Assembly: GCF_964019385.1 (NCBI RefSeq)
Contig: NC_088651.1
Coordinates: 4,635,110-4,699,109 of the forward strand
DNA length: 64,000 nucleotides
From: Sycon ciliatum
Taxonomy: Eukaryota; Porifera; Calcarea; Leucosolenida; Sycettidae
Reading direction: 5' to 3'
Positions 15,201-21,200 of this stretch are shown here, piece after piece (the first letter of the stretch is position 1; each line of letters opens with the position of its first letter). The notes below the pieces were generated by a model, which saw only the letters and a program-made list of their open reading frames with translations, made no database searches and had not been told where the DNA came from. The position numbers and the translations under genes are program-made.

Positions 15201-18200
15201 GTGTGAATGTGTAAGTGGCTGCGTTGGAGTTTGTGGGCAATTAGAAATGAGCTACAATGACGAATAAAAAAAGAGACGACTCAGACGAGATCCCTACCTG
15301 TACACAACGCCTCTTTCATGAAGATGGATTAGTATGTCAATGATTTGATTCAGCCATCCCATTACTATGGGAAAGTTCTGATTTCCCATAGTATGCAGGT
15401 TATCTGAAACAGACGCACGCAATGTCACCCCATACCCAACCGCACATTGATAACGCGCAAAAACAGACACGAACACGGACACTTGATGGACGCAAACACG
15501 TTCGTTCTCGTTTTGATGTGAATGCCCATCACGGAAGAGATGGCAAATAACCTGCGTTAGACACAGGCACTTGATCAACAGCTTTCAAGGTTGACATGCA
15601 GTAGATATGACAAGTGGCTTTGAGGTCTCGGCCTGTTACATGTATAACGAACTGTGCATCAATGTAACCAGATAATGATACTGCCGGCAAGTGCGACAAG
15701 GCACACAACTGACCAGGAGTACTGAGATATTCAATGACCTTACACCTACCTCCAACACATCAGAACTCGTAACATGTTGCCCCTCCTCTATTTATCCAAG
15801 ATTACATTGGCTCAGCATCTGATTTCAAGTTCATTAGTAACCAGAAACCCTTCATTTTAAGATCCTCAGAATGCATGTAACCAAGTTTGATTGTGGACGC
15901 CAGCCAATGTCCGGCCTTCGGTCGAGTGCCATAATGCGATGCAATAATAATAATTTGAAACTCGGATGTTGAGCCATAAATAAATGTAAAAGAGAAAAGG
16001 ACATATGGATACGAGTTTAGAGTAACTCTCCATCACTGTAACATGATACTATATACAGTCAGAAAGTGCAATAACTAGGCACAAAACTGACAGAGTACTG
16101 AGACATTCGACGTCCTGACACCTAACTTTAACACATCTCCGTAGCGCTAACCGACAGCCTTCCAACTTGGAAGGTTCAAGGTTATGGAAAGACCAAAGAG
16201 GGGAAGGCAAGCGCAACGAAAACGAGCAAAAGCTACAGTCCCAACGGAACAAAGAATGTCGATTGTTACTGGACGATGACGAGACCAGTACGATATTTGA
16301 CAAAGCGGTCTAACTACAATTCGAAGCAGCAAAGCAGCACACCACCCAACTTGGGTGGGTCATAAATATCAAAGATAAGTAAAGAAAGGGAAGCTTTGCG
16401 AAAACGAATTGTACAAGCCGAAAGCCAAACTCCTACAGTACTCCTCATGCATGACATTGTGATGGACTAGTTGACTACAAACCAAGTTGTTTCACACGAC
16501 GTACGTTTCGCCGTATGGTTCGTGACGGCTCATCAGGTGTGCAATTTGAAACTCGGATGTTGAGCCATAAATAAATGTAAAAGAGAAAAGGACATATGGA
16601 TACGAGTTTAGAGTAACTCTCCATCATTGTAACATGATACTATATACAGTCAGAAAGTGCAATAACTAGGCACAAAACTGACAGAGTACTGAGACATTCG
16701 ACGTCCTGACACCTAACTTTAACACATCTCCGTAGCGCTAACCGACAGCCTTCCAACTTGGAAGGTTCAAGGTTATGGAAAGACCAAAGAGGGGAAGGCA
16801 AGCGCAACGAAAACGAGCAAAAGCTACAGTCCCAACGGAACAAAGAATGTCGATTGTTACTGGACGATGACGAGACCAGTACGATATTTGACAAAGCGGT
16901 CTAACTACAATTCGAAGCAGCAAAGCAGCACACCACCCAACTTGGGTGGGTCATAAATATCAAAGATAAGTAAAGAAAGGGAAGCTTTGCGAAAACGAAT
17001 TGTACAAGCCGAAAGCCAAACTCCTACAGTACTCCTCATGCATGACATTGTGATGGACTAGTTGACTACAAAACAAGTTGTTTCACACGACGTACGTTTC
17101 GCCGTATGGTTCGTGACGGCTCATCAGGTGTGCAATTTGAAACTCGGATGTTGAGCCATAAATAAATGTAAAAGAGAAAAGGACATATGGATACGAGTTT
17201 AGAGTAACTCTCCATCACTGTAACATGATACTATATACAGTCAGAAAGTGCAATAACTAGGCACAAAACTGACAGAGTACTGAGACATTCGACGTCCTGA
17301 CACCTAACTTTAACACATCTCCGTAGCGCTAACCGACAGCCTTCCAACTTGGAAGGTTCAAGGTTATGGAAAGACCAAAGAGGGGAAGGCAAGCGCAACG
17401 AAAACGAGCAAAAGCTACAGTCCCAACGGAACAAAGAATGTCGATTGTTACTGGACGATGACGAGACCAGTACGATATTTGACAAAGCGGTCTAACTACA
17501 ATTCGAAGCAGCAAAGCAGCACACCACCCAACTTGGGTGGGTCATAAATATCAAAGATAAGTAAAGAAAGGGAAGCTTTGCGAAAACGAATTGTACAAGC
17601 CGAAAGCCAAACTCCTACAGTACTCCTCATGCATGACATTGTGATGGACTAGTTGACTACAAAACAAGTTGTTTCACACGACGTACGTTTCGCCGTATGG
17701 TTCGTGACGGCTCATCAGGTGTGCAATTTGAAACTCGGATGTTGAGCCATAAATAAATGTAAAAGAGAAAAGGACATATGGATACGAGTTTAGAGTAACT
17801 CTCCATCACTGTAACATGATACTATATACAGTCAGAAAGTGCAATAACTAGGCACAAAACTGACAGAGTACTGAGACATTCGACGTCCTGACACCTAACT
17901 TTAACACATCTCCGTAGCGCTAACCGACAGCCTTCCAACTTGGAAGGTTCAAGGTTATGGAAAGACCAAAGAGGGGAAGGCAAGCGCAACGAAAACGAGC
18001 AAAAGCTACAGTCCCAACGGAACAAAGAATGTCGATTGTTACTGGACGATGACGAGACCAGTACGATATTTGACAAAGCGGTCTAACTACAATTCGAAGC
18101 AGCAAAGCAGCACACCACCCAACTTGGGTGGGTCATAAATATCAAAGATAAGTAAAGAAAGGGAAGCTTTGCGAAAACGAATTGTACAAGCCGAAAGCCA

Positions 18201-21200
18201 AACTCCTACAGTACTCCTCATGCATGACATTGTGATGGACTAGTTGACTACAAAACAAGTTGTTTCACACGACGTACGTTTCGCCGTATGGTTCGTGACG
18301 GCTCATCAGGTGTGCAATTTGAAACTCGGATGTTGAGCCATAAATAAATGTAAAAGAGAAAAGGACATATGGATACGAGTTTAGAGTAACTCTCCATCAC
18401 TGTAACATGATACTATATACAGTCAGAAAGTGCAATAACTAGGCACAAAACTGACAGAGTACTGAGACATTCGACGTCCTGACACCTAACTTTCCATCAC
18501 AATGTCATGCATGAGGAGTACTGTAGGAGTTTGGCTTTCGGCTTGTACAATTCGTTTTCGCAAAGCTTCCCTTTCTTTACTTATCTTTGATATTTATGAC
18601 CCACCCAAGTTGGGTGGTGTGCTGCTTTGCTGCTTCGAATTGTAGTTAGACCGCTTTGTCAAATATCGTACTGGTCTCGTCATCGTCCAGTAACAATCGA
18701 CATTCTTTGTTCCGTTGGGACTGTAGCTTTTGCTCGTTTTCGTTGCGCTTGCCTTCCCCTCTTTGGTCTTTCCATAACCTTGAACCTTCCAAGTTGGAAG
18801 GCTGTCGGTTAGCGCTACGGAGATGTGTTAAAGTTAGGTGTCAGGACGTCGAATGTCTCAGTACTCTGTCAGTTTTGTGCCTAGTTATTGCACTTTCTGA
18901 CTGTATATAGTATCATGTTACAGTGATGGAGAGTTACTCTAAACTCGTATCCATATGTCCTTTTCTCTTTTACATTTATTTATGGCTCAACATCCGAGTT
19001 TCAAATTGCACACCTGATGAGCCGTCACGAACCATACGGCGAAACGTACGTCGTGTGAAACAACTTGTTTTGTAGTCAACTAGTCCATCACAATGTCATG
19101 CATGAGGAGTACTGTAGGAGTTTGGCTTTCGGCTTGTACAATTCGTTTTCGCAAAGCTTCCCTTTCTTTACTTATCTTTGATATTTATGACCCACCCAAG
19201 TTGGGTGGTGTGCTGCTTTGCTGCTTCGAATTGTAGTTAGACCGCTTTGTCAAATATCGTACTGGTCTCGTCATCGTCCAGTAACAATCGACATTCTTTG
19301 TTCCGTTGGGACTGTAGCTTTTGCTCGTTTTCGTTGCGCTTGCCTTCCCCTCTTTGGTCTTTCCATAACCTTGAACCTTCCAAGTTGGAAGGCTGTCGGT
19401 TAGCGCTACGGAGATGTGTTAAAGTTAGGTGTCAGGACGTCGAATGTCTCAGTACTCTGTCAGTTTTGTGCCTAGTTATTGCACTTTCTGACTGTATATA
19501 GTATCATGTTACAGTGATGGAGAGTTACTCTAAACTCGTATCCATATGTCCTTTTCTCTTTTACAATAATAATAATAATATGAATATAACTAAATGCGCA
19601 CTCATATCACAACCATGGGGACGAATAATGTATTCCAGAACGTTTTCTTGTCACAATTATCAATGGAATTCGTGACTAAAGAGAATGATGAAACTAAAAT
19701 AGGATTTATACACTTGGAGTGAAACAGTGAGGATACAGCGAGGATACAAGTTTCACTGTTTCACTCCAAGTGTATAAATCCTATTGTAGTTTCATCATTC
19801 TCTTTAGTCACGAATTCCATTGATAATTGTGACAAGAAAACGTTCTGGAATACATTATTCGTCCCCATGGTTGTGATATGAGTGCGCATTTAGTTATATT
19901 CATTGCATTATTAAGATTAATGTCTCCACGTCGCCTTTTTAAATAATAATATGGATAAGGATTAGGAGAACTTTTAAAACTCATCATGAACTGTCAAGGA
20001 AGTGAACAGCCTTGGAAGAAAGGAAAGGTCCCCCCACCCCTCCCCAGGACCTTTTTTCCTTTCTTCTACATAATACATACATCGAGACACTGGCGTGAAT
20101 AATGGAGTGTGGTGGTGGGGCACACTAATTAAGCTCAGACGACCAGAGGTCTCGGCTTCATAGCTCGATGGATGCACCAAAGGGAGATCGGGTAGGGAGG
20201 ATTAAGTTGAAAAAGATAGCTGAAGAAAGAAAATGAAAAGATTGTATTGCTCAGTGAGCAAATGCTAAGTTGACTAATGACATGAACCCTGTTAGCCTCA
20301 AAAGTTTTGGTCTTACCAGTATCATTCCATACATACACATCAGTCCTTCACTGCTGAGACTTTCAGCTCATGATTGTCTTGGTTGCGCTCACCTTCCCCT
20401 CCTTATGTTACTTCTATGACTTAGAACCTTCCAAGTCAGAAGGCTGTTGGAGTGCGCATCCGAGATGTGCTAGAGCTGATTGCCGGTTAGAACGCCAGTA
20501 CTACTGGTCAATGTCGTGCAAGGTTATCGCATGAGCTGATTGTAAAGTAACTGGTGGTGTAAGTGGATATTGTAGCTTAACATTTAGCTGTTTGGTCTTT
20601 ACTTCTTGCAGATTAGTTGATTGTTAGGAAATTATCGATAAAATACCGAGTAATTGGTGTAAACGTTTCAGCCCTAAATGATTATAATGATAATGATAAT
20701 ATTTAGACTCGAGGGGAGAGCCAAGGATTAACTTATGATAAGAAAAGAGGACGAAAGAGCTGCAAGATACGCTACTACTTGTATATCCACTAGCACCACC
20801 TGTTACTATTACAATCAGTTCATGTGATAACCTTGCACGACATTGACCAAAGGTACCAACGTTCTAAACCTAACTAGGAATCCGCTCTAGCACAACTCGG
20901 ATGCGCACTCCAACAGCCTTCCAACTTGGAATGCTCTAAGTTATAGAAGGCACATTAGATGGACGGCTGTACACATTCTTTCAAGTTGCTTCACGTTATG
21001 ATCTTGCAGTTGAAAGCCCTATTTGAAGAAGGTGGCCAGCTGTCTTTGCTGGTACGGTACGGGACATGGACGGGATGGTGCCCAGCATCTCCATGTGACA
21101 CCAGACTCAAACACACAATTAAATTATTACCGAATTGAAGTGGAGGAAGACTGTGGACACTGGCTAGCGCGAGACATTAAGTAAACTCTTTTGCATAGCT

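Follow-up and report, generated by a model that had tools for sequence, protein, structure and literature searches.

The window analysed here, 64,000 nt of the calcareous sponge Sycon ciliatum (contig NC_088651.1, positions 4,635,110 to 4,699,109; coordinates below are those of the window), contains a tandem array of 591-bp units that carry hammerhead ribozyme motifs and are partly inverted head to head (Table 1). The array extends from 15952/15957 to 19565, with an inversion point at 18492/18493, and has a 591-bp period on one strand, while its inverted arms match each other at 99–100% identity over as much as 1,078 nt. A previous interpretation of the same letters made without database searches (the sequence-only reading) described four direct and nearly two inverted, almost identical units, which agrees with the 4.30 direct and 1.82 inverted units that we delimit between 15952 and 19565 (6.1 units in total, with two substitutions in 3,614 bases). 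These substitutions (positions 16482 and 16627) are each private to one unit and no variant is shared; two further differences, at 19566 and 19568, fall outside the right-hand (short) end and were counted as flank rather than as unit variants. The low divergence supports the earlier view that the element is recent.

The unit has a GC content of 43% (0.431) and is non-coding, the longest listed frame being 86 aa from stop to stop (frames were listed from 80 aa). An Rfam search of the array region at E values up to 10 returned the five hammerheads and no tRNA, 7SL or 5S match. Searches of viral and prokaryotic contig collections for relatives of the array (two patterns against viral contigs, one against genome contigs) gave 0 matches, in collections from which the window's own genome may have been left out.

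Hammerhead motifs of the array

The five motifs are identical, and each contains all core bases, stems I and II of 5 bp and a GTC site, as the sequence-only reading had proposed. C3 lies at 16536, 17127, 17718 and 18309 on the minus strand and at 19014 on the plus strand, and the cut site reads ..GTACGTC/GTGTGAAAC.. (slash, cut). All five were recovered by a structural pattern and by RF00163, which scored 26.8 bits for each (E = 0.0016 with 3.9 kb searched, 0.025 with 64 kb searched); this does not reach the gathering score of 34, and a default Rfam run does not list them. The structural pattern matched ten times in the window, five times in the array and five times elsewhere, and 0 times on either strand of 60 simulated 64-kb sequences (first-order Markov). 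A lone match at 52437 (+) has an A/T-rich stem II and could be due to chance despite the 0 in 60 simulations. Stem II of the array motif is closed by a 10-nt loop. The 3-bp stem III of the earlier description does not hold up: ACGUACGU cannot give a 3-bp stem with a 2-nt loop, and 2 bp with a GUAC tetraloop is the realistic form. By eye, stem I could be extended by CAAAUUG and CAACUUG, which pair at six of seven places past an AAA bulge; folds with the hammerhead imposed choose another stem I extension or none.

Folding of the motif and the unit had been suggested as a check. The circular 591-nt unit has a predicted minimum free energy (MFE) lower than that of shuffled sequences (z = −5.4 in hammerhead sense and −3.4 for the complement, 60 shuffles each), but the hammerhead is not the favoured fold: the bare motif has a predicted energy of −7.6 kcal/mol as a hammerhead versus −13.0 kcal/mol in its preferred fold, and the circular unit −165.3 versus −175.0 kcal/mol.

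Table 1. Features of the window discussed in the text; relatives, P1, P2 and the Penelope-like element (PLE) follow the array. pLTR, pseudo-long terminal repeat.
Feature	Coordinates	Strand	Remarks
Direct arm	15952-18492	-	2,541 nt, 4.30 units of 591 nt in hammerhead sense; stops at long end (15952-15957)
Inverted arm	18493-19565	+	1,073 nt, 1.82 units in hammerhead sense; stops at short end (CTTTTAC/A, 19564/19565)
Head-to-head inversion junction	18492-18493		Arm starts are unit positions 370 and 32, numbered from the hammerhead cut
Tail, short-end to long-end position	15957-15984	-	GGCUC/GAG hairpin, 7-nt loop, near 3' edge
(AAT)4, left end of insertion	15943-15954		Possible 3-nt overlap with long end
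(AAT)5, right end of insertion	19565-19580		
Type I hammerhead motif 1	16492-16542	-	Rfam RF00163 and structural pattern
Type I hammerhead motif 2	17083-17133	-	Rfam RF00163 and structural pattern
Type I hammerhead motif 3	17674-17724	-	Rfam RF00163 and structural pattern
Type I hammerhead motif 4	18265-18315	-	Rfam RF00163 and structural pattern
Type I hammerhead motif 5	19008-19058	+	Rfam RF00163 and structural pattern
Relative without hammerhead	8168-8838		68% across 297 alignment columns; long end antisense, short end sense; adjoins ATT repeats
Relative without hammerhead	34085-34422		Antisense short end, sense long end; away from ATT runs
P1, inverted pair, PLE-pLTR-like	8866-9576		Hammerhead motifs at 9082 (minus) and 9394 (plus); long and short ends (by eye)
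P2, inverted pair adjoining P1	9607-10747		332-nt arms, 477 nt apart; hammerhead motifs at 9763 (minus) and 10591 (plus)
PLE at 62 kb	61823-64000	+	Inverted pLTR arm 61838-61948, C-terminal piece, pLTR, reverse transcriptase frame

Ends, target and relatives of the array

Both outer ends of the array are 3' ends in the hammerhead sense, and they fall 27–34 nt apart on the unit, the spread arising from letters common to element end and flank. The left (long) end reads ..CCGAGTTTCAAATT/ATTATTATT and lies directly 5' of the hammerhead, while the right (short) end, ..CTCTTTTAC/AATAATAAT, lies 27–34 nt earlier on the unit. Both are embedded in (AAT)n. All five pure ATT runs of at least 12 nt in the window touch element ends, and 6 of the 12 runs of at least 10 nt lie within 10 nt of one. 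Conversely, 7 of 19 listed element ends have an ATT run of at least 10 nt no more than 10 nt away (random mean 0.12, maximum 2 in 2000), a test that is biased because the list takes in ends of P1 and of a tRNA-derived element, noticed partly for their ATT runs; the ends at 15827 and 31355 were left out of it. Directly adjoining the array is a palindromic element (19565-19918; 166-nt arms, 96%, spacing 22 nt) that contains two miRNA-like Rfam matches.

About a dozen relatives of the unit occur elsewhere in the window (BLAST, alignment and profile), several of them remnants shorter than 100 nt, and none has a hammerhead by the structural pattern. A 3'-module profile returned 22 rows, comprising ten long ends (two of them weak, E = 0.014 and 0.032), six short ends, five internal array copies and one noise match (E = 1.1); the long-end class is partly set by construction, since six of its ten members were the profile seed and the profile stops there. 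All three head-to-head family insertions with both ends visible (8168-8838, 15952-19565 and 34085-34422) combine a long end with a short one, and by eye P1 is a fourth such element. End types were not scored for P2, for the PLE at 62 kb, where one end is visible, or for the tail-to-tail pair formed by 20607 (short end) and 20703 (long end), which was treated as two insertions.

The sense arm of the relative at 8168-8838 starts at a distance of 0–4 nt from the position homologous to the hammerhead cut (letter-shuffle p = 0.0055; a 9-mer with one mismatch is expected 0.0045 times in 36 nt). This is as would be expected if the template had been a cut linear RNA, for a single copy examined post hoc. 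At the long end, a hairpin with a 7-nt loop appears in the MFE folds of the last 40 nt of 5 of the 10 family long ends and of P1; imposed on nine of the ten (15827 left out), it pairs in 42 of 45 cells, and six of nine copies have all five pairs. The covariation is not above that of shuffles (61 of 500 reach it), and conservation of the hairpin is indicated weakly only.

Other elements in the window

P1 contains a TATA-like stretch and has long and short ends about 32 nt apart; its flanks are a 13-bp duplication, ATTACTATTATTA, at 8853-8865 and 9577-9589, with an interrupting C (all by eye). We infer that P1 is a PLE pLTR. Its plus-strand hammerhead motif runs GCTCAACTGATGAGGGG..CCCCGAAACACTGTGTATTGAGC, and a copy of this type at 1080-1115 (+) has a broken core that reads CTGCTGA. 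RF00163 had no match on P1 or P2, where Rfam gave one weak HH9 match at 9713-9779 (18.3 bits versus a cut-off of 52).

The reverse transcriptase frame of the PLE at 62 kb is open from 62803 to the window end and has 39 relatives (best E = 1.3e-95), of which 18 carry PF00078 (reverse transcriptase domain) and 38 carry PF28514. Pfam found no match on the window's own stretch of this frame, and we call the frame PLE-like on the basis of its relatives, the pLTR layout and known motifs, no GIY-YIG match having been obtained. The pLTR has hammerhead-like words by eye only, with no hammerhead by Rfam or by the structural pattern. Across the window's open reading frames Pfam gave nothing above cut-off and nothing useful for PLE pieces; a comparison of the 61791-62498 frame with solved structures gave no credible match. 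A frame at 7868-8134 (-) resembles the C-terminal piece at 62.3 kb by eye and has no Pfam match.

At 1290-1821, flanked by (TTA)n on one side and (ATT)n on the other, a tRNA-derived 281-bp unit occurs twice in tandem. Its second copy stops 44 nt earlier in the 3' direction (at 1807), a difference that resembles a tail, and neither Rfam nor the structural pattern found a ribozyme in the element. Inverted and direct tRNA-like repeats lie at 6993-7778. A remnant of a reverse transcriptase of the long interspersed element (LINE) type occupies 14210-14647 (RVT_1 E = 0.0021, below cut-off), and short frames at 42023-56532, on both strands, resemble protein kinase exons by eye.

We compared the start module of the array, i.e., the sequence at its two end sites, with those of the resident elements. 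Similarity to P1, the PLE at 62 kb and the tRNA-derived element was not above chance (p = 0.82, 0.14 and 0.46), and that to P2 was borderline (p = 0.052). Among 15 pairwise local alignments of six modules, only the array versus its own relative beat all 500 shuffles; the borderline pairs were array–P2 (0.052), relative–tRNA-derived element (0.056) and P1–P2 (0.05). A start motif, GTCCTTTT, which by eye seemed common to the array and the resident PLEs, is not claimed after these shuffle tests.

Integration model, alternatives and known systems

The end structure, the (AAT)n target, the head-to-head inversion and the hammerhead-less relatives together point to Penelope-type integration; these features, including the inversion as a footprint, are new beyond the sequence-only reading, whose retrozyme interpretation is partly supported. 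We consider the array to be, with reasonable probability, a non-autonomous, non-coding, retrozyme-like hammerhead element copied into (AAT)n by PLE-type machinery. PLEs have been named as likely movers of animal retrozymes on the grounds of co-occurrence and common hammerheads (PMC7229834, PMC7761336). The protein of one PLE cuts both strands, prefers 5'-ATT-3', and has two internal reverse transcription start sites that account for a tail of 30–40 nt, which is called unique to PLEs (Frangieh et al. 2024, PMC11167929). In a rotifer paper, one pLTR of an inverted pair bears the tail, and the head-to-head arrangement is described as the commonest (PMC3846280). The array has a corresponding tail of 27–34 nt and both ends at ATT, and the presence of a PLE-like frame in the same window also counts for PLE machinery.

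In the model that we propose from these end positions, the hammerhead would cut tandem transcripts, and the 591-nt units would persist as circles or stay multimers. A PLE protein, the presumed enzyme, would cut both target strands at ATT and begin to reverse-transcribe the RNA from two internal positions separated by about 30 nt, which lie immediately upstream of the hammerhead, where the array ends are observed. One target strand would prime at the long site, yielding 4.30 units, and the other at the short site, yielding 1.82 units, and the two cDNAs would be joined head to head; the two arms are the products seen, and the order of events is our conjecture. A product below one unit would have no ribozyme, because synthesis would start 5' of the hammerhead and take it in only once a full unit had been copied; this would account for relatives that lack it. 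The 6.1 units with two private substitutions and no shared variant count for a template longer than one unit.

Several observations weigh against this model. Energy models prefer an inactive fold by 5–10 kcal/mol, such that the ribozyme is not the predicted minimum-energy fold, and a ribozyme switch by tail–core pairing is not claimed (no other window of the unit pairs better with the core, but shuffling the tail gives p = 0.12). Covariation in the long-end hairpin that does not exceed that of shuffles tells in the same direction. Of 14 array-family ends, only 3 (both array ends and 8835) are as close as 10 nt to an ATT run of at least 10 nt, i.e., 1 of 12 besides the array's own, with a 9-nt run at 8168; the inverted arm begins 32 nt past the cut rather than at it; and free choice of site would give four of four mixed end pairs with a probability of about 0.06. 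No helper PLE is identified among the elements of the window by start-module sequence. The start sites lie just upstream (5') of the hammerhead in the array and downstream (3') of it in the published PLE (PMC11167929). In that study, the start site shows no difference between top and bottom strands, hammerhead mutants still insert in vitro, such that cleavage is not needed, and no reads start or stop at the hammerhead cut; for these reasons it lends no support to one site per strand or to a role for cutting.

The same machinery acting on an element of other origin, namely a PLE deletion derivative with tandem pLTR-like units and a lost reading frame, would account for the hammerhead, tail, ATT target and head-to-head layout common to the array and PLEs, and PLE and pLTR-like copies are at hand in the window. 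We regard this as unlikely, given an end module without clear similarity to those of P1, P2 (borderline) or the PLE and start sites on the other side of the hammerhead. An ordinary satellite, in which one insertion grew through unequal crossing-over or slippage during replication before part of it was inverted, fits the tandem array by itself, and homogenisation could produce the identity. It appears improbable: the array stops at the positions where scattered relatives have their long and short ends, two other members of the family as well as P1 show the head-to-head layout with opposite types of end, and each variant is private to a single unit.

Mobilisation of the same element by a LINE or another reverse transcriptase has a slim chance in our judgement; the LINE-type remnant nearby speaks for it. 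Twin priming, which is known for LINE-1, also counts in its favour. Opposed to it is the tail signature, described as PLE-unique (PMC11167929). An assembly artefact, a fold-back chimera that made the inverted part, would fit the 99–100% identity of the arms. It is very improbable, as the arms are of unequal length with different outer ends and the layout recurs in older, diverged relatives.

The locus connects, to the base, insertion marks of the PLE type with a hammerhead array; it offers a reason for relatives without a ribozyme and suggests how ribozyme elements may spread through genomes. Among the literature matches listed, no report of retrozyme ends at PLE start sites was recognised from titles and the beginnings of abstracts, which is not proof of absence. 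A question that can be asked of any genome is whether the ends of retrozyme arrays lie in ATT-rich DNA, fall on two fixed sites spaced by about 30 nt and are of opposite type within each array. More tentatively than for the array itself, we propose that animal-type retrozymes may be PLE satellites: a PLE dimer would cut both strands at ATT and place two reverse transcriptases, one for each target strand, on neighbouring sites of a single circular RNA, with several rounds of synthesis and head-to-head joining of the cDNAs, and hammerhead-less families resembling short interspersed elements (SINEs) would be its sub-unit-length products. The lack of a strand difference in the start site in the published PLE assay (PMC11167929) weakens this proposal.

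Compared with SINEs, the array family is likewise short and non-autonomous with scattered truncated relatives, but it has a ribozyme motif and a tandem array, and no tRNA, 7SL or 5S match in Rfam. With metazoan non-LTR (long terminal repeat) retrozymes (Cervera and de la Peña 2020, PMC7229834) it has in common tandem units that code for no protein and each bear one type I hammerhead (five motifs at unit spacing), as the sequence-only reading had supposed, as well as GC below 50%, a stable predicted fold and PLEs in the same genome. It differs from them in being partly inverted head to head and in having two fixed end sites in (AAT)n. Its unit is unusually long, as had been noted: 591 nt versus about 170–400 nt in animal retrozymes, and outside the range of about 150–450 bp expected of a retrozyme, which also weighs against our interpretation; circles of 150 to >1000 nt are mentioned in general in the discussion of that paper. 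The array appears to work in the manner of a retrozyme, and because its unit length falls outside the stated animal range we regard its formal membership as provisional. Unlike PLEs, the unit has no reading frame for a reverse transcriptase with GIY-YIG, yet it resembles Penelope/Poseidon PLEs (PMC11167929, PMC3846280) in its two end sites and tail, ATT target, head-to-head copies, hammerhead and tendency to form tandems.

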